From Streptomyces sp. NRRL B-3428 (lineage in GTDB: Bacteria > Actinomycetota > Actinomycetes > Streptomycetales > Streptomycetaceae), in assembly GCA_000721375.1 (NCBI GenBank), contig JOGW01000013.1, positions 1-64,000 of the forward strand: a stretch of 64,000 nucleotides of DNA, written 5' to 3'. Under the pieces are notes generated by a model. The model was not told the DNA's origin, did no database searches, and saw only the letters and a list, made by a program, of their open reading frames with translations. Below, piece after piece: positions 1,223 to 47,068 of this stretch. Every line of letters begins with the position of its first letter. The stretch's first letter is position 1. The position numbers and the translations under genes were made by a program.

Positions 1223-1828
1223 GTGGAAATGGCAGGCATGTCGTTGGCGGCGGCCGGGGCGGTCGTGCTCCGCGAAGGGATCACGTTCTTCTACGCGCAG
1301 GCCACCGAACTGCTGCAACGCAGGCGAGACCGGCATGACCGGCGAAACGCCGAGGCCACGGCCGACGGCACGGAACCGGGGCCGGGCCATGACGGCGGGC
1401 CTGGCCCGGAACCCGAAGTGGCCGCGGCGGCGCTCAGGGCGCCGGAAGGCGTCTTGGACGGTGAGTTGGTCGACCGCGGCGTGGACGAAACGGCGCTGGA
1501 CGAGGAGGCGAGCCGGCTGATCGACCTGACCGGGCGACTGCACGGCTACGAGCAGGGATTCCGTCCGGTGACCACGCAGGACCAGGAGTTGCTGGCCACG
1601 GTGGACGCGCTGCGGCTCGCGCTGGAACACATCTACGGGCAGCGGATCACCCTGGCCGGCGAGGCCAGGCCGACCACCGGCAGCCCTCTGGCGGACGCGG
1701 CGCCTGGTGCGGCGCCGACGGTGTCGGTCAACGTCAGCGGCCAGGGGGCGGTAGGCGTGGGCGGTGACGTCAGCGGGACGATCACCACCCATGCGCCGGC
1801 GCCCCTTCGGAGCCCGCATGAGCAGTGA
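1223..1828 (+). CDS. Hypothetical protein with glycine-rich beta motif, NACHT partner
   Basis: A 201-residue protein of unknown function starting at GTG, 2 bp after the upstream stop. Residues 1-35 are a hydrophobic/amphipathic helix followed by a cluster of Arg residues; the middle (45-70) is low complexity, then acidic helices follow to about 140. The C-terminal stretch 167-190 carries the motif VSGQGAVGVGGDVSG. A close variant, VSGDGAVGVAGNMTG, occurs near the N-terminus of the next protein. The gene overlaps the NACHT gene by 11 bp (ATG at 1818, TGA at 1826-1828), which indicates translational coupling and probably a joint complex. Confidence 0.75.
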   Translation: MEMAGMSLAAAGAVVLREGITFFYAQATELLQRRRDRHDRRNAEATADGTEPGPGHDGGPGPEPEVAAAALRAPEGVLDGELVDRGVDETALDEEASRLIDLTGRLHGYEQGFRPVTTQDQELLATVDALRLALEHIYGQRITLAGEARPTTGSPLADAAPGAAPTVSVNVSGQGAVGVGGDVSGTITTHAPAPLRSPHEQ

Positions 1829-4800
1829 GCGCACCGGCAAAGAGCCCAGCGGCACCCGCCCGTTGGGGTCCGGAGACGACGGGCACGAGCCGCCGGGCGC
1901 CGGTGGAGAAGCGCTGACGCCACCCCCGACGCCGACCCCGCCCCCGTACACCCGGCTCCACGTCTCAGGCGACGGCGCAGTGGGTGTCGCGGGCAACATG
2001 ACCGGCGTGATCAACACCGGCCCCGTGACCGTCACTTCGCGGCCGACCCTCGCCCAAGCGCGGCCCAGCGCGCTGCAGTGGGCCGGCTACCGCGAGCGGA
2101 TCGGCCTGGACACGTACACCCCACGGAAGTGGCTCGTACGGGAGATCGACGACTTCATCGCCGACCACGAGAGCGGCTACTTCCTTGTCATCGCCGACGC
2201 CGGCCTCGGCAAGTCGGCCTTCGCCCTGTCCTTCCAGCAACAACACGACTGCCCAGGGCACTTCGCGGGAACGGGGGCACGGGAGCGCACCACCCGCGCG
2301 GCCGCGATGAGCCTGTCGGCACAGTTGATCGAGCGATGGGGCCTGGCCGACGCCTTCGCGCCGGACGGCTTCCTGCCCTACGGTCTGGACGGGGCTCCCG
2401 GGCTTGAGGCGGTCCTCGTGGCCGCGGCCGAACGGCGGGACGCGGAGCGGACCGGGGAGCCGATCCTCCTGGTAGTGGACGGCCTCGACGAGCACGAACC
2501 CTCCGCGGAGGAGCGTGGTGCGCGCGCGGCCATGCCGTTCGGACTGCCGCCACAACTTCCGCGCCGTGTCTACGTCATCGCCACGGTACGCAGCGGTACC
2601 GACATACCCGGGCTTCGTCAGCCGTATCTCGAATGCGACTGGCGCGAGCGGGTGGACGCCAACCTGGGCGACATGCGCCGCCACCTGGAGAAATACAGCC
2701 GAAGCCCCGCCCTCGCGGAGCGGATCGCCGCGGCGGGCATCTCCCCGCAGGACGTCATCGGCACGCTGCTCGACCGCTGCGCCGGAGTGTGGATCTATCT
2801 GCGGTACGTCCTCATGGAGATCGAACTCGACCGCCGCCGGGTGGACGAACTCAACCGGCTCCCCGCCGACCTGGCCTCGTACTACCGGGACTGCCTCAAC
2901 CCGCTACGGGCCGACTCGACGCTCTGGTACGACGTGTACCTGCCCGTCCTCGCCACGGTCGCCACGGCCGCCGAACCGATCGGCCACGCCACCGTGTCCA
3001 CGCTCGCCGGCGCCACCCAGCCGCTGCGGGTGAGCCGTCTGCTCACCGAGACCCTGCTGCCCTTCCTCTACCGCACACCTGACGGATCGCGTTTCGCCCC
3101 GTACCACCAGACGCTGCGTACGTTCCTCACCGGCGACGACGGCCCCGGCACCCGCTGGTCGGGCTCGCTCGCGGGCTGGCGCACGGAGCTCTCCCAGGCC
3201 GCAGCGCAGGTCCAACACCGGATCTGTGACCACTACCTCGCCGTTTGGGGCGGTCTCGACGACGGCTTGCCGGGACTGACGGCCGCCGCGTCGAGCGGGC
3301 CGCGTGACGCGGAGACCGAGGGGTACGGGCTACGCTCCCTCATCGGTCATCTGGCGGCGGCCGGACGGTACGACGAGCTGCATCAGGTGCTGGCCTGCGA
3401 ACATGACGACCGCAATATCTGGTACGAGGCGCACGATCGCGTCGGGGACATCGAAAGCTACCGCGCGGACATCGCCGTCGCCCGCGGTCTGTGCGCCCCG
3501 GGCAACGCCACCGCGTCCATCGGACGGGAACTGCGCTACCGCCTCATCGACGCCAGCCTGATCTCCATGGCGGGGCAGGTTCCGACTCCGCTGCTCCAAG
3601 CCCTCGTAGCGGCCGGGGTGTGGCGGCCGGAGCGGGCCTTCGCCCATATCGACATGGCGGAGCCAACCGCGGCGGCTGAGGCGGCGGGTGACTTTCTGAC
3701 CGGCGTGCAGGCCGCCCGACTCTGGCAGCGCGCGGTCACGATCGGCGACGCCCACACGCGGGGCGAGGCCATGGCCAAGCTCTTCCGCTACCTCCCCGAG
3801 GATCTGCTCGAAGAGGCCCTTGACCACGTGGTGGCTGCACCGGACGACTACAGCTTCGGCATCAGCCTGATCGCCCTGATCCCGCGACTGCAGGGTGCGT
3901 TGCTGCGCAGAGCGGTGCTGGCCGCCTGCGGTCGCCCCTCCGCCTTCGACCGTGCCGGCGTGCTCCATTCCGTGATGCATCTGGTGCCCGCCGAGCTGGT
4001 GCCGCAGGTGCTCGGGGCCATGCGCGAAGCGGCCGACAACGCGCCCGCGGGCTGGTGGCGCGCGGCCACCTGCTGCTATCTCGCCGACCACGTTCCTGCG
4101 GACGAGCGCCGGGAGTTGCTGCGACGCGCACTCGTGGCCGCGCGGGCCACCCGGGTGAGGGACCGGGGTCTTGCGCTGTCGGTCGTCGGTAGACGAGCCG
4201 CCGACGACCCGCGACTGTGGGGGGAGGTCCTGGAGTCGGTCCATGAACTCGAGTCCACGTCGTCACGGTTGAAGACGCTGACCGACATGGCACAAGCCGC
4301 TGGCGCGCCGGAGCGGGAGGCGCTCGTCGCACTCGCGAGCGACCTCGCCCGCGGCACGAGTGAGCCCTACGAACGGGCGCGCGCGCTCACCGACCTCGTG
4401 CCCCTGGCCGAGGGCGAGCAACGGCGGCGGCTCCTGCGCGAAGCGATGGACGCGGCACGGTCCATCGACAATCTCCAGATCGGGATCCCGCGGTGGGCCG
4501 CGCTCGCGCAGGCCCACCTGGCAGGACCCGAGCGTGAGGAGGAGATGGCCAGGGTCTGGCGCGCATACGAAGAGTGCGACGACAGTTTCCGCAAGGACCA
4601 GGTACTGCGGGACCTGATCCCCTGCCTCACAGGGGACCTGGTCCAGTCGGCCCTGACGGCCGCCCGTGCGATCGACTTCGCCTCGAGCCGGGCGAGTCGG
4701 CTCGGGGAGCTCATCCCCTTGCTGCCACCGGCCGACCGCGCGGCAGTGGCCGCGGAGGCGCTGGCCACGGCCCGCGCCGTCGACGACCACGCAGACCAGC

Positions 4801-5987
4801 GCGCGGCGGTCACCGCGCTGACCGGCGAGCAGTTCCGCACCTGGGCCGAACCAGGCACCTCGGACACGGCCCCGGGCGCGCCCCGTACACCCGGCGCCAT
4901 CGCCGAGGCCATGCTCGAACGCATCACCGCAATCCCCGATCCCTGGCGGCGACTCGAGGCCGTGATCGACGCCTCGGGCGACATCACACCGCCCCTGGCC
5001 GACCGCTTCTACAAGATCGCCGGGGAACTGGGCGAATCGACGGTGCCGACGACGGCCGTCATGAACCTGGGCGCTGGTCTGCCCACGGCGACGCTGGGAC
5101 TGCGCAACACCGGCATCGAGTCCGCCGCCCTGGCGGCGGTGATCCGCATACCCCGCCTTCGTGAGGAGGCGGTGGAGCACATCCTCGACCAGTCCCTCGA
5201 CGCGGCGGCACTGCTGGCCGGGAACCTCCCACCGCAAGCTCCCGCGGTCGCCCGGTGGCCAGTCGACCAGGCGATCCCGATGCACCGCATCCGGTATCGC
5301 GACGCCCGCGACGCCGACGACATGATCTGGGCCGCGTCCCACTCCGTCACCTTCCGCTGGACGCTCGCCGAAGCTCTCACCGGGATCGCCGAGCACCTGG
5401 TCGGCGAGGCCCGCTCCGCCGCCGTGGCGGACGCTCTCGCGCTGCTGCGGAGCATCCCTCCCGGCTGGGACTACTTCGGGCACATACGGATGCGAGCGCT
5501 CCGAGTGCTTCCGCTGCTCTCGGAGAGCGGGCGATCCGGCCTCCTGGACGACCTCTTCACGTACGCCGCCGTGGAGCTCGACGGCCTCCACCAGGCGAGC
5601 GTGATCGCCGCCCTGGCGCCGCATCTGCCCGAGCATCTGCTGCGCGAAGCGCTGGACCTGCTCGCCGGGCTGGATGAGAAGAACCGTCGCGTCGCCGTGG
5701 CCGCGGTCGCCGAGGTCTGGCAGGGCGACTCGGCCCCGATCCGTCACCAGATCGCCCGACTGGACATGCACGGGCGGGTGAAGGCGCTCGAAGCGCTCCT
5801 GCGCAATCCCGCTCAGCGAGGCCAGTCCGACGGTCCCGCCTTCGACCCCTGGCCGCCCGGCGCGGACCGTGCGCAAGCGTTGACGATCGTCGCCGCTGCC
5901 GCCTGGTGGGTGCGGCACGAGGGCGGCGCACAAGCGGTCGCCGAGACCGTGCGTGCGATCAACGACACGGCACGGTGGTGGCCTTGA
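1818..5987 (+). CDS. NACHT/STAND-family P-loop ATPase with helical repeats
   Basis: A 1389-residue NTPase. After a Pro-rich disordered start comes the glycine-rich motif at residues 49-65. The Walker A motif ADAGLGKS is at about 126-133 and the Walker B-like motif ILLVVDGLDEHE at about 216-227, the acidic extended form typical of NACHT/STAND ATPases. From about residue 450 to the end the protein is alpha-helical repeats rich in Ala, Leu and Arg, with recurring ALxxARxI/V and LPxxDR phrases, as expected for a sensor array. No nuclease, protease, TIR or membrane effector domain is visible, so any effector may be in a partner protein. ATG at 1818 is preferred over GTG at 1764 because the latter overlaps the upstream gene by 65 bp. 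Confidence 0.85.
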   Translation: MSSERTGKEPSGTRPLGSGDDGHEPPGAGGEALTPPPTPTPPPYTRLHVSGDGAVGVAGNMTGVINTGPVTVTSRPTLAQARPSALQWAGYRERIGLDTYTPRKWLVREIDDFIADHESGYFLVIADAGLGKSAFALSFQQQHDCPGHFAGTGARERTTRAAAMSLSAQLIERWGLADAFAPDGFLPYGLDGAPGLEAVLVAAAERRDAERTGEPILLVVDGLDEHEPSAEERGARAAMPFGLPPQLPRRVYVIATVRSGTDIPGLRQPYLECDWRERVDANLGDMRRHLEKYSRSPALAERIAAAGISPQDVIGTLLDRCAGVWIYLRYVLMEIELDRRRVDELNRLPADLASYYRDCLNPLRADSTLWYDVYLPVLATVATAAEPIGHATVSTLAGATQPLRVSRLLTETLLPFLYRTPDGSRFAPYHQTLRTFLTGDDGPGTRWSGSLAGWRTELSQAAAQVQHRICDHYLAVWGGLDDGLPGLTAAASSGPRDAETEGYGLRSLIGHLAAAGRYDELHQVLACEHDDRNIWYEAHDRVGDIESYRADIAVARGLCAPGNATASIGRELRYRLIDASLISMAGQVPTPLLQALVAAGVWRPERAFAHIDMAEPTAAAEAAGDFLTGVQAARLWQRAVTIGDAHTRGEAMAKLFRYLPEDLLEEALDHVVAAPDDYSFGISLIALIPRLQGALLRRAVLAACGRPSAFDRAGVLHSVMHLVPAELVPQVLGAMREAADNAPAGWWRAATCCYLADHVPADERRELLRRALVAARATRVRDRGLALSVVGRRAADDPRLWGEVLESVHELESTSSRLKTLTDMAQAAGAPEREALVALASDLARGTSEPYERARALTDLVPLAEGEQRRRLLREAMDAARSIDNLQIGIPRWAALAQAHLAGPEREEEMARVWRAYEECDDSFRKDQVLRDLIPCLTGDLVQSALTAARAIDFASSRASRLGELIPLLPPADRAAVAAEALATARAVDDHADQRAAVTALTGEQFRTWAEPGTSDTAPGAPRTPGAIAEAMLERITAIPDPWRRLEAVIDASGDITPPLADRFYKIAGELGESTVPTTAVMNLGAGLPTATLGLRNTGIESAALAAVIRIPRLREEAVEHILDQSLDAAALLAGNLPPQAPAVARWPVDQAIPMHRIRYRDARDADDMIWAASHSVTFRWTLAEALTGIAEHLVGEARSAAVADALALLRSIPPGWDYFGHIRMRALRVLPLLSESGRSGLLDDLFTYAAVELDGLHQASVIAALAPHLPEHLLREALDLLAGLDEKNRRVAVAAVAEVWQGDSAPIRHQIARLDMHGRVKALEALLRNPAQRGQSDGPAFDPWPPGADRAQALTIVAAAAWWVRHEGGAQAVAETVRAINDTARWWP

Positions 5988-9005: not shown

Positions 9006-9485
9006 CAGCCCTCACGAGCCCGCCGGACGGCCCGACTTCAGGGCCCGGAAGGACCGTCGTGCCCGGTTTCCTGTAAACGGAAGGAGATCCGCGGACACCG
9101 CGTTCACCGTCGTGCAGGAGCTGCGCGCCAAAGGTCTGCACCACGGCCGACTCCACGCGCGTCCCCGTGCAGCGACTCCAACGGAACCACTCGTACCGCG
9201 GGTCATAAAGCATGCCTTCTTGGCCATGAACCCATAGGCGTTCAGCCATCGACGGAGACTGGCTCAAAGCTTGAGCACATTTTCCACACAACCTCTCTGC
9301 ACGTTGGCCCTGATGCTCTAGATTGACCGTGCTTCACCGGCTTGAGCATGAGCGGCCAGTAAAGATCATTAGGTCCCGAGGGGACCCGAACACCACAAGA
9401 CAGGCGATTCCGCTGTGATTTGGGCGGGTTGTTCGGGCGGCACGAGAAGACCGGCATATCAGGCGCCGGACCGGGATGTCGGGTA
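9006..9485. promoter_or_regulatory. Non-coding control region upstream of the polysaccharide cluster
   Basis: No supported gene lies here. At 9262-9276 there is a dyad, GCTCAA-AGC-TTGAGC, and its right half GCTTGAGCA recurs at about 9341-9349, so two sites for one regulator are possible. A TTGACC hexamer at 9323-9328 could be a -35 element, but no good -10 sits 16-18 bp downstream. A DnaA-box-like TTTTCCACA at about 9280 stands alone. Promoter activity is inferred from position, since this is the only sizeable gap before 21 genes on the + strand. Confidence 0.4.
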
Positions 9486-9609
9486 CGGGAGGCGGGGGTC
9501 TCCCGGGGGAGGAACATCACGGGAGACGGGGGTCTCCCGAGGGGTGGGTCATCGCGGGGGACGGGGGTCCCCCGAGGGGTGGAGTTTCACGGGGGACGGG
9601 GGTCTCCCG
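9486..9609 (+). repeat. Four tandem 35-bp units, each a hairpin with GGGG loop
   Basis: Four consecutive units with a spacing of 34-35 bp. Each can fold as C-7 bp stem-GGGG-7 bp stem-G: 9486-9505, 9520-9539, 9555-9574 and 9590-9609. The stems are GGGAGGC/GTCTCCC, GGGAGAC/GTCTCCC, GGGGGAC/GTCCCCC and GGGGGAC/GTCTCCC. The fourth base pair goes A-U, A-U, G-C, G.U and the sixth G.U, A-U, A-U, A-U, so every change keeps pairing in + strand RNA. Each hairpin is followed by a G-rich, Shine-Dalgarno-like linker; the last one (GGGGGGAG) directly precedes the start of the first polysaccharide gene. The 35-bp period is not a multiple of three, so the array is not a peptide repeat. Confidence 0.75.
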
Positions 9610-9622
9610 GGGGGGAGTGACT

Positions 9623-11146
9623 GTGTTAGGCGAACACGTCGAACCCACTGGCGACCTGGGGGGGTCAGTGCAGCAGGGGGAGTTATTGAGCCCTTTTCCC
9701 TCCGCTCGCGGGCCTCTGGCCACCGGGGCGATCGGCCGGCCCGCGAGCGACTGGGAGCAGCGCTACCGCCGTTCGGTGATCACCAGCGACACCGCGGCCA
9801 CCGCCTTCGTCGTAGGGGCGATCGGCGGCTTCTTCGGAGTACGTGACGCGGCCAACTGGCATGAGAACTGGGCCATATTGGCCTTCGGCACCGAACTTCT
9901 GGTGCTGGGAGCGCTCGCTCTGAGCCGCTCCTGGGCGCCGGCGGTCCTCGGCCAGGGCGCGGAGGAATTCCGCCGGCTCGGACGCGCGCTGTTCGCGGCG
10001 GTCGTCGTGCTGTCGCTCGGCGGGATCGCCCTCACCTCGCGCAACATCAAGCTGTGGATCTTCGTCGCGATCCCGGCCATCGCACTCGCCACCATGACCG
10101 AGCGCTATCTGCTGCGGCTGCGGCTGCACAGACAGCGCAAGGAGGGTGAATGTCTGCGGCCTGTGCTCGCCGCCGGGAGCCCGGCCACCGTACGCGATCT
10201 GATCACCCGGGCCCGGAAATTCCCGCACCTCGGCTGGCGGGTGGACGCTGTGTGCACGGCCGACGGCCGCGGGCTCGACGGTGACTTCCTGGACGGTGTG
10301 CCCGTCGTCGGCCTGCTGACCGACGTCGCACGCTATGTCCGGCGTGACGGGTTCCGTGTCGTCGCCGTCACTCCCGACCCGCACTGGTCGCCGGACCAGC
10401 TGCAGCGGCTGGCCTGGAACCTCGAGGGCAGCGATGCCGAGATGGTCGTGGCACCGGTTCTGATGGAGGTGGCGGGACCGCGGCTGCATGTCGACGCGGT
10501 GCTCGGGATACCGCTGCTGCGGGTCAGCATGCCTGCGTTCACCGGCGGCCGCCGCGTGGTCAAGGCCTTCTTCGACCGGCTGGGCGCGATGTTCCTGCTC
10601 CTGCTGTTCTCACCGCTGATGGTGCTCGTCGGGGTGCTTGTGCTCCTCGACAGCCGCGGTGGAGCGCTCTACAGCCAGCGCAGGGTCGGCAAGGACGGCC
10701 GCGAGTTCACCATCTTCAAGTTCCGCACCATGGTCACCGGCGCCCACAAGGCACGCGCCCAGCTGGCCGACGTCGACGAGGGCGCGGGCCTGCTGTTCAA
10801 GGTCCGCAGGGATCCGCGGGTGACGCGGGTGGGAGCGGTGCTGCGCCGGTACTCGCTCGACGAGCTTCCGCAGTTGTTCAACGTTCTCACCGGCTCCATG
10901 TCGCTCGTCGGTCCGCGGCCGCCGCTGCCGGAGGAGTCCGCCGCGTACGGCCCGGACATCCGGCGGCGCCTCCTGGTGAAGCCCGGGCTCACCGGCCTGT
11001 GGCAGATCAGCGGACGCAGCGACCTGCCGTGGGACGAAGCGGTCCGCCTCGACCTGCGGTACGTGGAGGACTGGTCGCTGGCCCTCGACGCGGTGATCTT
11101 GTGGAAGACGCTGCGTGCGGTGCTCCAGGGGCAGGGGGCCTACTGA
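9623..11146 (+). CDS. Polyprenyl glycosylphosphotransferase initiating exopolysaccharide synthesis
   Basis: A 507-residue WbaP/CpsE-type enzyme that moves a sugar-1-phosphate onto undecaprenyl phosphate at the membrane, the first step of repeat-unit assembly. It has four N-terminal hydrophobic segments (about residues 50-165), a central CoA-binding-like domain, and a C-terminal bacterial sugar transferase domain with a membrane re-entrant helix. Family motifs are QRRVGKDGREFTIFKFRTM, LDELPQLFNVLTGSMSLVGP and KPGLTGLWQISGRSDL. GTG at 9623 is chosen because GGGGGGAG lies 6 bp upstream; GTG at 9617 or 9669 and TTG at 9686 are alternatives. With the chosen start the second codon is TTA (9626) and another TTA is at 9683, both rare in Streptomyces. 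Confidence 0.9.
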   Translation: MLGEHVEPTGDLGGSVQQGELLSPFPSARGPLATGAIGRPASDWEQRYRRSVITSDTAATAFVVGAIGGFFGVRDAANWHENWAILAFGTELLVLGALALSRSWAPAVLGQGAEEFRRLGRALFAAVVVLSLGGIALTSRNIKLWIFVAIPAIALATMTERYLLRLRLHRQRKEGECLRPVLAAGSPATVRDLITRARKFPHLGWRVDAVCTADGRGLDGDFLDGVPVVGLLTDVARYVRRDGFRVVAVTPDPHWSPDQLQRLAWNLEGSDAEMVVAPVLMEVAGPRLHVDAVLGIPLLRVSMPAFTGGRRVVKAFFDRLGAMFLLLLFSPLMVLVGVLVLLDSRGGALYSQRRVGKDGREFTIFKFRTMVTGAHKARAQLADVDEGAGLLFKVRRDPRVTRVGAVLRRYSLDELPQLFNVLTGSMSLVGPRPPLPEESAAYGPDIRRRLLVKPGLTGLWQISGRSDLPWDEAVRLDLRYVEDWSLALDAVILWKTLRAVLQGQGAY

Positions 11147-37417: not shown

Positions 37418-37490
37418 GAGATGAGCTCACTTCGCGTGAAGTGAGCTCATCTCACGTGAGGTGGCCTCATTTCGCGTGAACCGAGCTCAC
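37418..37490. terminator. 16-bp perfect hairpin inside a 20-bp tandem repeat
   Basis: The arms 37418-37433 and 37438-37453 pair perfectly with a 4-nt loop (GCGT). The region also repeats with an exact 20-bp period from 37422, 37442, 37462 and partly 37482, consensus TGAGCTCATTTCGCGTGAAG. It lies between the converging aminotransferase and PAP2 genes, so a bidirectional terminator is the simplest reading. The extra repeats beyond the hairpin are unexplained. Confidence 0.75.
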
Positions 37491-43377: not shown

Positions 43378-45063
43378 ATGGGTATGCGGCTCAGGGCAGG
43401 CCTCACGAGCGTCGCGCTTCTCGCTTCCTTGCTGACGGTGACCGGCTTCGGGGCGGGCGGCGAGGACGGCCCGCCCGCCCCGTCCGCCGGACCCCCGGTG
43501 CCCGAGATGGTGGTGACGAACAATCCCTCGGGCAGTGCGGCGCAGCAGAACGCCATCGAGACGCATGTACGCGAGCTGATCAAGGGCGCTCCCCCCGGCT
43601 CGACCATCCGCTACGTCTCGTACTACACGTGGGCCGGCGCGCTGACCGCGGACCTCATCGCGGCACACCGGGACCGGGGCGTCGATGTGCAGGTGGTCCT
43701 GGACGAGCTGGAGGCGAACAACCCCAAGTCCGCGCTGCCCTCGCTCGCGGACGCGCTCGGTACGAACACCTCCGCGAAGTCGTTCGTCAAGGTGTGCCCC
43801 AAGGGCAAGGCGTGCATCGGCCCGAAGGGCGGCATCACCCACTCCAAGTTCTGGCTGTTCTCGCAGACGGGCGGATCGCACAACGTGATCGTGAGCGCGT
43901 CCGCGAACATCAGCCCGGGCAGTCGGCAGAACCTGTGGAACTCCTCGGTGACCCTCGTCGGCCGCGACAAGGTCTACGAGGGGTTCCGCGCCTTCTTCAC
44001 CGACATGGCCAGAACCGGCACCCAGCCGAACTACTACCGCACCGCGGCACAGGGACCCGCCGAGGCGTTCTTCTTTCCCCGGGCCGGCGCGGGGGACGCC
44101 ACCGACACGATCGTCGGCGCCCTGCAGAAGGTGAGCTGCACCAAGCAGTCCACCGGGTCCCCCACCACCCTTCGGGTCAACATGTTCAGCCTCGAACGCC
44201 CGGGTGTGGCACGGCAGTTGTGGGAACTCGGCAGAAAGGGCTGCAAGGTCGACATCGTCTACAGCTTCCTGTCGGACGGAGCCCACAAGGAACTCCTGAA
44301 GAAGTCCGGGAACTACCACGGTCCGTCGCTTTGGCCGTCGCAGAACACCTACGTACGGGGCTGCGTCACCTTCGACACCTTCACGCACGAGAAGTACCTG
44401 CTGATCGAGGGCGGGTACGCGGGGAAGAGCAACCAGAAGATCGTCTTCTCGGGCAGCCACAACTACACCTCCCGCGCCCTGCGCACCAACAACGAGCAGC
44501 TGGTGAAGCTGGCCTCCCCCGCGCTGTACGACGGCTACCGGCAGAACTTCCTCGCCGTACGCGCGAGTCTGCAGCCCCGCCTCGACCCCGACGAGAACGG
44601 TCTGCCGGACGCCCCGGCACCGCCGCGGGCCGTCACCATGCCGCGGTGGCTGCTCGAGGAACTCGACATCCCCCTGGAGCAGAACGGTCCGCCGCTGCCG
44701 ACCTCGCCCGGCTGCGTCTGCCCCGCGCAGGGCGACTTCGCCAAGAAGTGGAAGGAGCTCGGCGCGCAGGGCGGCAAGCTGAAGTGCCCGACCTCGAACT
44801 CCCGGAAGGCCACCGGAGGCGTTCAGCAGTCCTTCGTGGGCGGGACCCTGTACTGGTCGAGGGCTACCGGCGCCCATGTGGTCTGGAAGAACGGCGCGAT
44901 CGGGCCCCGCTACACGTCCCTGGGAGCCGACGGCGGCCGCCTCGGCCTGCCGGTCACCGATGAGTGGAAACTGTCCAGCGGCAAGGGGTGGCGGCAGATC
45001 TTCCAGCACGGTCGCATCACGTGGGACAAGGGGACGAAGAAGACGGTCGTGACGTACTCCTGA
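43378..45063 (+). CDS. Secreted phospholipase D-like protein with LGFP repeats
   Basis: A 561-residue exported protein. Residues 1-26 are a signal peptide. Two HxK motifs of the PLD superfamily are present, HSKFWLF followed by SASANIS and HEKYLLI followed by SGSHNYTSRAL, although the Asp of HxKxxxxD is not obvious in either. The C-terminal 110 residues are LGFP-type repeats (WKELGAQGGKLKCP and YTSLGADGGRLGLPVTDEW), which bind the cell envelope. It may attack phospholipids or other phosphodiesters outside the cell. ATG at 43378 has AAAAGGA upstream. Confidence 0.88.
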   Translation: MGMRLRAGLTSVALLASLLTVTGFGAGGEDGPPAPSAGPPVPEMVVTNNPSGSAAQQNAIETHVRELIKGAPPGSTIRYVSYYTWAGALTADLIAAHRDRGVDVQVVLDELEANNPKSALPSLADALGTNTSAKSFVKVCPKGKACIGPKGGITHSKFWLFSQTGGSHNVIVSASANISPGSRQNLWNSSVTLVGRDKVYEGFRAFFTDMARTGTQPNYYRTAAQGPAEAFFFPRAGAGDATDTIVGALQKVSCTKQSTGSPTTLRVNMFSLERPGVARQLWELGRKGCKVDIVYSFLSDGAHKELLKKSGNYHGPSLWPSQNTYVRGCVTFDTFTHEKYLLIEGGYAGKSNQKIVFSGSHNYTSRALRTNNEQLVKLASPALYDGYRQNFLAVRASLQPRLDPDENGLPDAPAPPRAVTMPRWLLEELDIPLEQNGPPLPTSPGCVCPAQGDFAKKWKELGAQGGKLKCPTSNSRKATGGVQQSFVGGTLYWSRATGAHVVWKNGAIGPRYTSLGADGGRLGLPVTDEWKLSSGKGWRQIFQHGRITWDKGTKKTVVTYS

Positions 45064-45151
45064 ACCGGACTCCTGAACCGGAATTCCGAACCGGATCCCT
45101 GAACCGGACTCCCGAACCGGACTCCCGAACCGGACTCCCGAACCGGACTAC
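45061..45151. repeat. Seven exact 13-bp tandem repeats filling a convergent gap
   Basis: Seven head-to-tail units of exactly 13 bp, consensus YGAACCGGACTCC, occupy 45061-45151. The first unit begins with the stop TGA of the phospholipase-like gene, and the stop of the DeoR gene (45148-45150) lies in the last unit. The units differ at few positions (first base T or C; two units change the ACT part). It looks like a minisatellite between converging genes. No hairpin strong enough for a terminator is obvious. Confidence 0.85.
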
Positions 45152-46901: not shown

Positions 46902-46928
46902 GGCACTGCCTCCTGCTCGGGAATCTCG

Positions 46929-46984
46929 GGGAGTCTCGGGGATCTCTGAGATCTCCGGGAGTCTCGGGGATCTCAGAGATCTCG
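46929..46984. repeat. Two 28-bp direct repeats with internal dyads
   Basis: Two adjacent 28-bp units (46929-46956 and 46957-46984) match at 26 of 28 positions. Each contains a perfect dyad GATCTC-N-GAGATC (46941-46953 and 46969-46981). They lie upstream of the - strand VOC gene and could be paired operators or part of its leader. Confidence 0.6.
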
Positions 46985-47068
46985 GGGGATCCGTATCTGC
47001 CACGTTATGCGCCCGTACGGGGGACGGCGCGGCGAAGACCGCTCGCGGCCCGGGAGTGCCCGAAAAGG

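Follow-up and report, generated by a model that had tools for sequence, protein, structure and literature searches.

A tandem array of GGGG-loop hairpins as a probable leader RNA element of an exopolysaccharide gene cluster in Streptomyces

In the 64,000-nucleotide stretch of Streptomyces sp. NRRL B-3428 DNA analysed here (the window) four tandem hairpins precede a long exopolysaccharide gene cluster. The best explanation of this array is that it belongs to a cis-acting, Streptomyces-specific leader RNA of the cluster, in which the units would be repeated binding sites for a putative factor; we give this reading a probability of about 0.6. The hairpins are specific to this locus and conserved throughout the genus, their pairing is kept in register when the units are pooled, they show a + strand bias, and no reading frame is conserved in the leader. 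Since the pairing is kept by matching mutations, the array is probably an uncatalogued regulatory RNA. An earlier note on this DNA had proposed a repeated leader RNA element controlling translation or transcript stability; the repeated leader RNA element is supported, its pairing being kept at homologous loci, although a tree-aware test of the last hairpin alone is not significant, and the translational part of the proposal is weak.

The presence of four tandem hairpins at 9486-9609 of the + strand was confirmed, each of them 20 nt long with an 8-bp stem and a GGGG loop. Counted from the base of the stem, hairpin 1 (9486-9505) has G.U as pair 7, hairpin 2 (9520-9539) has A-U as pairs 5 and 7, hairpin 3 (9555-9574) carries G-C at pair 5, which is a two-sided change, and the last one, hairpin 4 (9590-9609), has G.U at the same place; over units 1-4 pair 5 runs A-U, A-U, G-C, G.U and pair 7 runs G.U, A-U, A-U, A-U. 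The hairpins are separated by linkers at 9506-9519, 9540-9554 and 9575-9589, and their start-to-start distances are 34, 35 and 35 nt. The variation that had been assigned to the fourth and sixth base pairs, counted without the outer C-G, was found again at pairs 5 and 7, although only one two-sided change is available from the window alone, because the remaining differences at these pairs are wobble steps. Folded singly, every unit gave 8 pairs with a GGGG loop at -14.0 to -17.0 kcal/mol. No other hairpin with 8 pairs (G-U included) and a GGGG loop exists on the + strand of the 64-kb window, and its - strand is free of them. In the source genome (8.57 Mb) these four sites are the only ones that match the degenerate hairpin word perfectly, the next-closest ones having two mismatches. 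The array also received the top Tandem Repeats Finder score among the 14 rows for the window; further tandem repeats lie at 37422-37490 (20 bp, 3.5 copies, just past a gene end), at 45056-45149 (13 bp, 7.2 copies) and at 46916-46987, where arrays of 9, 19 and 28 bp overlap. A 161-nt + strand RNA folded better than all of 200 shuffles (z -3.5), and the - strand of the array region reached z -4.1 against its own shuffles, one of 200 being as good; fold energy does not tell the strand, since the two are nearly equal in this respect.

The gene behind the array (9668-11146, + strand) encodes a WbaP-like sugar transferase (PF02397, E 5.6e-64) and is followed at 11214-37399 by co-directional polysaccharide genes on the same strand, including those for a UDP-sugar dehydrogenase, glycosyltransferases, two Wzz proteins, asparagine-synthase-like, heparinase-like and PIG-L proteins, an epimerase, a pyruvyl transferase and others. 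This co-directional cluster of about 27 kb reaches to about 37.4 kb in the window, and its genes are presumably transcribed in common. Among named genomes 475 relatives were found, of which the best 80 (83-88% identity) were kept; all of these best 80 of 475 are titled Streptomyces, bar one 'Actinobacteria bacterium', and the same hairpins are visible in many of their leaders. With the window these 80 loci made up 81 sequences, and 72 of them were used in alignment A1, nine short or irregular ones being excluded. A covariance model (R1) was built from the last hairpin, the counterpart of hairpin 4, and the downstream leader. It matched at E <=0.01 in 115 of 295 genomes of the genus, and the transferase protein matched at E <=1e-100 in 113 of the same 295. 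With the orthologs defined as the proteins of 112 genomes with at least 79% identity (a 45% identical protein of genome G121 being excluded), the leader was found in 111 of the 112, that is, in the conserved position before one gene family by which a cis-regulatory leader is recognised. At the sole ortholog that had no leader match (G242) the gene match starts at base 24 of the contig. Four further R1 matches lacking the gene (G072, G142, G186 and G245) are weak, with E values of 0.001 to 0.008, and were treated as chance.

In an order-level sample 77 of 245 genomes matched at E <=0.001, all of them in one of the eight genera, the share of the 245 outside that genus not being given. The leader is also present in three Streptomyces plasmid records, and a search of phage records with the leader of locus L085, rather than with that of the window, returned no match. 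The excluded transferase (G121:C140:443714-445174) stands in a genome that has no leader match and might serve as an outgroup when the origin of the element is traced. Of the additional leader matches in genomes that do have the gene, those of G168 and G222 were inspected. In genome G168 a second, partial leader copy with one hairpin unit, followed by no sugar transferase (locus L201, G168:C1:337600-339700), looks like a remnant. The exact hairpin word was found elsewhere in the genus in 14 of 392 genomes. Thirteen of these loci were read, seven of which lie in this same leader (L012-L016, L018, L019) and six outside it; the latter were rejected as copies of the element, as by eye five (L009, L010, L017, L020, L021) resemble LacI-type helix-turn-helix coding sequence, where the word appears to be a coincidence, and one (L011) resembles other coding sequence.

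The open frame of the window runs from 9476 and passes through the array, and the start of the transferase gene was placed by conservation at GTG 9668. A GTG in this register is found in 143 of 160 leaders, and in 136 of the 160 the start is preceded by 6 or 7 consecutive G (in the window 7 G at 9658-9664); in a plasmid record of Streptomyces sp. KN37, furthermore, the annotated start of the ortholog is the equivalent codon. Linker 4 and the strongly conserved stretch that leads to the start codon, as seen in alignment A1, occupy 9610-9667 of the + strand. Because the conserved start is GTG 9668, 59 nt past the last hairpin, the last G-rich linker does not serve the first gene as its Shine-Dalgarno sequence, and this claim of the earlier note is unsupported. 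The nearest GTG 5' of a conserved CGTCGA was compared with the gene frame in 70 of 81 leaders (six had no GTG and five were unmatched): the frames were divided 36/29/5, and in eight leaders the second codon after this GTG is a stop. No conserved short reading frame of the leader peptide or attenuator kind was found in the 81 leaders, and both a leader peptide and a ribosome-binding site after the last hairpin were rejected for this lack of frame conservation. Judged from the frame split and the conserved GTG 9668, the stretch of 58 nt separating the start from the last hairpin seems to be conserved as nucleic acid rather than as peptide. What lies upstream varies: the window has a histidine-kinase gene there, KN37 a polyketide synthase and locus L030 what we take to be an RNase J-like protein. 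The window also holds a 1407-aa open frame at 1764-5987, in which an NTP-binding part is apparent by eye near the N terminus.

Over the leaders of relatives the consensus of the hairpin is CGGGRGGC-GGGG-GCCTCCCG, and that of the short linkers is RGGGGAGGAACAGYG, with a longer form ending in CGGCG as the alternative. The loop on the + strand is GGGG in 123 of 130 units, and the unit spacing, determined in 66 cases, was 35 nt in 20, 40 nt in another 20 and 34 nt in 8. The number of units is variable: among 146 full-length leaders nine had none, 38 one, 48 two, 37 three, 12 four and two had five units, so that one to five were present in 137, where up to two transversions from the consensus were accepted and zero means that no copy passed this threshold. 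The 3' arm reads GTC in all four units of the window but GCC in most of those found in relatives; this may be taken as a sign of homogenisation. A four-loop G-quadruplex, a variant of the G-quadruplexes suggested earlier, cannot be general, because 123 of the 146 leaders carry only one to three copies. Pairing between the linker and the 3' arm was rejected as an alternative structure: the consensus unit would allow it, but the 3' arm of the window's unit 2, when deprived of its partner, pairs elsewhere. Fourteen of the 80 fetched loci (L024, L026, L029, L040, L042, L043, L044, L051, L056, L067, L078, L090, L091 and L095) start at a contig end 36-202 nt 5' of the gene match, in or beside the position of the array, and the assemblies seem to be broken by the hairpins.

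The pairing is retained in the homologous loci. The 72 aligned last units have 96.2% of their cells paired, a value that none of 500 shuffles attained (93.9%), and none reached their covariation score of 0.210 either (shuffles 0.165), which drops below 0.10 when the register is slid. A pooled set was collected from 160 leaders, which remained of 171 once duplicates were removed, with one transversion from the consensus allowed at most; it contained 251 units, 72 of them distinct. At pairs 2, 3, 4, 6 and 7 of these distinct units T stands opposite a 5' A in 11 of 18 cells and opposite a 5' G in 31 of 332 (Fisher P 3.6e-7, permutation P 0.0002, one-position shifts P 0.95 and 0.93), the A-T cells being spread over five pairs and ten loci with three of the 11 from the window itself; the pooled-unit tests ignore shared descent, the units are homogenised within species, and the G-rich sequence makes alignment errors easier. 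In a tree-aware null, where parsimony events were re-placed on the tree, the last hairpin of 153 leaders taken alone was not significant, as 68.5% of the deviating cells were paired against 50.9% expected (P 0.17) and 15 two-sided changes were counted against 18.5 expected (P 0.34); this test is low in power because conservation is high. The covarying stems proposed earlier are supported in register by the pooled units without correction for the tree, but not by the last hairpin alone in the tree-aware test.

The kind of mispairing bears on the strand. In the pooled units G.U or U.G was found in 78 cells and A.C or C.A in 13 (41 against 13 when pair 5 is left out), and with two transversions allowed (115 distinct units) the counts were 136 against 30; the excess of G.U over A.C fits a + strand that is read as RNA, as the earlier note had it. 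In the tree-aware test of the last hairpin the 18 A.C cells fell short of the 75 expected (P 0.055), but so did the G.U cells, with 126 where 201 were expected. From this sequence evidence it is likely, though not proven, that the array is read as RNA.

Upstream of the array the window contains, at 9315-9328 of the + strand, GCTCTAGATTGACC, its version of a conserved block with the consensus GGTCTAGATTGACC, which is a candidate promoter or operator region. With up to three mismatches the block was found in 65 of 81 leaders, about 230-520 nt 5' of the match start, and of the 16 leaders without it 14 are cases of a contig end; in the window and the 64 other loci it is very conserved and has conserved flanks. 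The GGTCTAGA in this upstream block may resemble a DasR site, but the window has GCTCTAGA. The scan of 9150-9700 revealed neither a sigma-70-like promoter nor a terminator-like site on the + strand. Between block and array a further hairpin, CTTGGGTGC-GGGGA-GCACCCGAG, was found in 58 of 80 loci when up to three transversions were allowed, a few of these apparently being spurious. Its pairing is 92.7% and drops to at most 52% in the three slid registers computed. The tree-aware support for it is borderline, with 18 two-sided changes against 8.4 (P 0.038), retained pairing at P 0.058 and A.C cells at 20 against 40 (P 0.004), it being the sole one with some support among eight helices tried singly and the P values being uncorrected for the eight tries. 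The window lacks most of this upstream stretch, having 221 nt against a typical 319. A large multi-helix upstream domain, for which alifold predicted many pairs, was rejected: in 96 of 134 sequences, selected by length, retained pairing reached P 0.12 and two-sided changes numbered 68 against 79.6 expected (P 0.80). An R-scape-like scan of this domain recovered no pair of the predicted structure and one pair (E 0.017) outside it, in the block near GGTCTAGATTGACC.

Other explanations of the array were weighed against these data. The inverted repeats could be tandem double-stranded sites of an operator array for a dimeric transcription factor, acting at the level of DNA. Their arrangement ahead of an operon, the strongly conserved block upstream and the non-significant tree-aware pairing test are all compatible with such an operator; nevertheless we consider it unlikely in view of the near-constant GGGG loop of one strand, the compensating changes between the arms and the prevalence of G.U over A.C, and the common spacings of 35 and 40 nt are out of helical phase and speak against phased operators, because they differ by about half a helical turn. 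That the array is a neutral tandem repeat which slippage maintains in G-rich sequence is very improbable: the varying copy number and the homogenised GTC of the window units would suit this, yet the array stands beside nearly every ortholog sampled, and its loop, linker and pairing are conserved.

Two further possibilities accept the array as RNA. The hairpins might signal processive antitermination in a long polysaccharide operon, like the EAR, ops/JUMPStart or LoaP hairpin elements. Such leaders are described for polysaccharide operons (PMC2864571; PMC12691694), and this possibility was retained as a candidate because the cluster is long, with about 27 kb of co-directional genes behind the leader; it is doubtful all the same, as a single NusG-domain match (E <=0.01) was found in the source genome and no LoaP or RfaH paralog, no Rfam family reached its threshold, and the region is devoid of the + strand terminator-like site that was sought in 9150-9700. 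Alternatively, the G-rich linkers might be Shine-Dalgarno-like stand-by sites, by which 30S subunits would be loaded for GTG 9668 or the leader would be shielded. The Shine-Dalgarno-like character that the earlier note had ascribed to the linkers is real insofar as GGAG, GAGG or AGGA occurs in 121 of 149 inner linkers; moreover, the consensus linker, taken together with the G before it, pairs with the anti-Shine-Dalgarno sequence at -14.9 kcal/mol, compared with -10.5 and -11.0 for the two start regions tried, and is predicted to be mostly unpaired in the consensus unit. The median of the inner linkers, however, is -10.8 kcal/mol against -9.7 for shuffles and -11.2 for start regions, only 59% of them beat their own shuffle, the AACAG outside the Shine-Dalgarno-like part is conserved about equally, linker 2 of the window is predicted to be partly paired, and no conserved reading frame follows, all of which makes ribosome docking an improbable function of the array.

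Comparison with catalogued RNAs gave no assignment. Searching the 4227 families of Rfam at the gathering threshold yielded no match in 10 loci; four sub-threshold matches were returned for 9200-9900 of the window (best E 0.53) and none at E <=5 for the L085 leader. The best thematic one for the window is the Guanidine-II riboswitch (mini-ykkC, RF01068), likewise a pair of short hairpins that follow one another in a leader; at 9553-9608 it scored 12.9 bits (E 6.2), far below its threshold of 32 bits, and no RF01068 match was obtained in the L085 leader. CsrA/RsmA-type targets are repeated hairpins with G-rich single strands that offer multiple sites to a protein, and the array shares this repeated-hairpin layout, but differs by its GGGG loop and by the source genome, where no CsrA match was found (the control was positive in 3 of 14 genomes). 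The EAR or epsC motif RNA of Bacillus and its relatives is described as an RNA structure located 5' of exopolysaccharide genes, in their leader (PMC2864571); the likeness lies in being a leader RNA of polysaccharide genes, whereas here simple tandem hairpins occur in varying number, in another phylum and below every Rfam threshold. The ops/JUMPStart element acting with RfaH is also presented as a leader element of polysaccharide operons (PMC2864571), and the resemblance drawn here is one of setting; it differs in that a NusG paralog was not found in the source genome. The LoaP element is reported to be a small RNA hairpin with a UNCG-type loop, located in the long leaders of large biosynthetic operons (dfn, mln; PMC12691694); the Streptomyces array differs by its GGGG loop and by a source genome in which a second NusG-family gene was not found. 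In the open-access literature no paper was recognised as dealing with this hairpin leader; the main text of a 2024 search of 50 genomes, including S. avermitilis, does not contain the word 'polysaccharide' (PMC11109978).

If the array belongs to a cis-acting leader RNA, as we prefer, this leader would be transcribed ahead of the exopolysaccharide cluster, with the WbaP-like sugar transferase gene as the first one, and each unit would consist of a short, rigid stem exposing a C-GGGG-G loop, with the conserved linker behind it. Units would duplicate and drop out in tandem, and for this reason the number of sites would differ between species. Each unit would most likely be a binding site for one trans-acting factor, putatively a protein, and the locus specificity together with the repeated loop and linker fit repeated sites for a single factor. 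No candidate binding protein for the array was found, and factors of the CsrA and NusG-paralog types are not available, because the genome gave no match to the former and a single NusG-domain match. The factor might meet the leader and set the expression level of the cluster, where the controlled step could be the stability of the mRNA, the translation of its first gene or elongation beyond the leader; any single one of these steps receives less than half of the probability given to the reading as a whole.

A more speculative extension, offered tentatively, is that the variable-number array works as a dosage dial, in which one putative RNA-binding factor of Streptomyces would be recruited by every unit, and species would come to differ in exopolysaccharide output as units are gained or lost. 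As the genome gave no CsrA match, conservation of a repeated RNA hairpin would mean that a regulator has gone unrecognised. Orthologs of the first gene of the polysaccharide cluster behind the element occur in 112 of the 295 genomes sampled in the genus, and the differences in copy number of the element offer a natural experiment that is already at hand.
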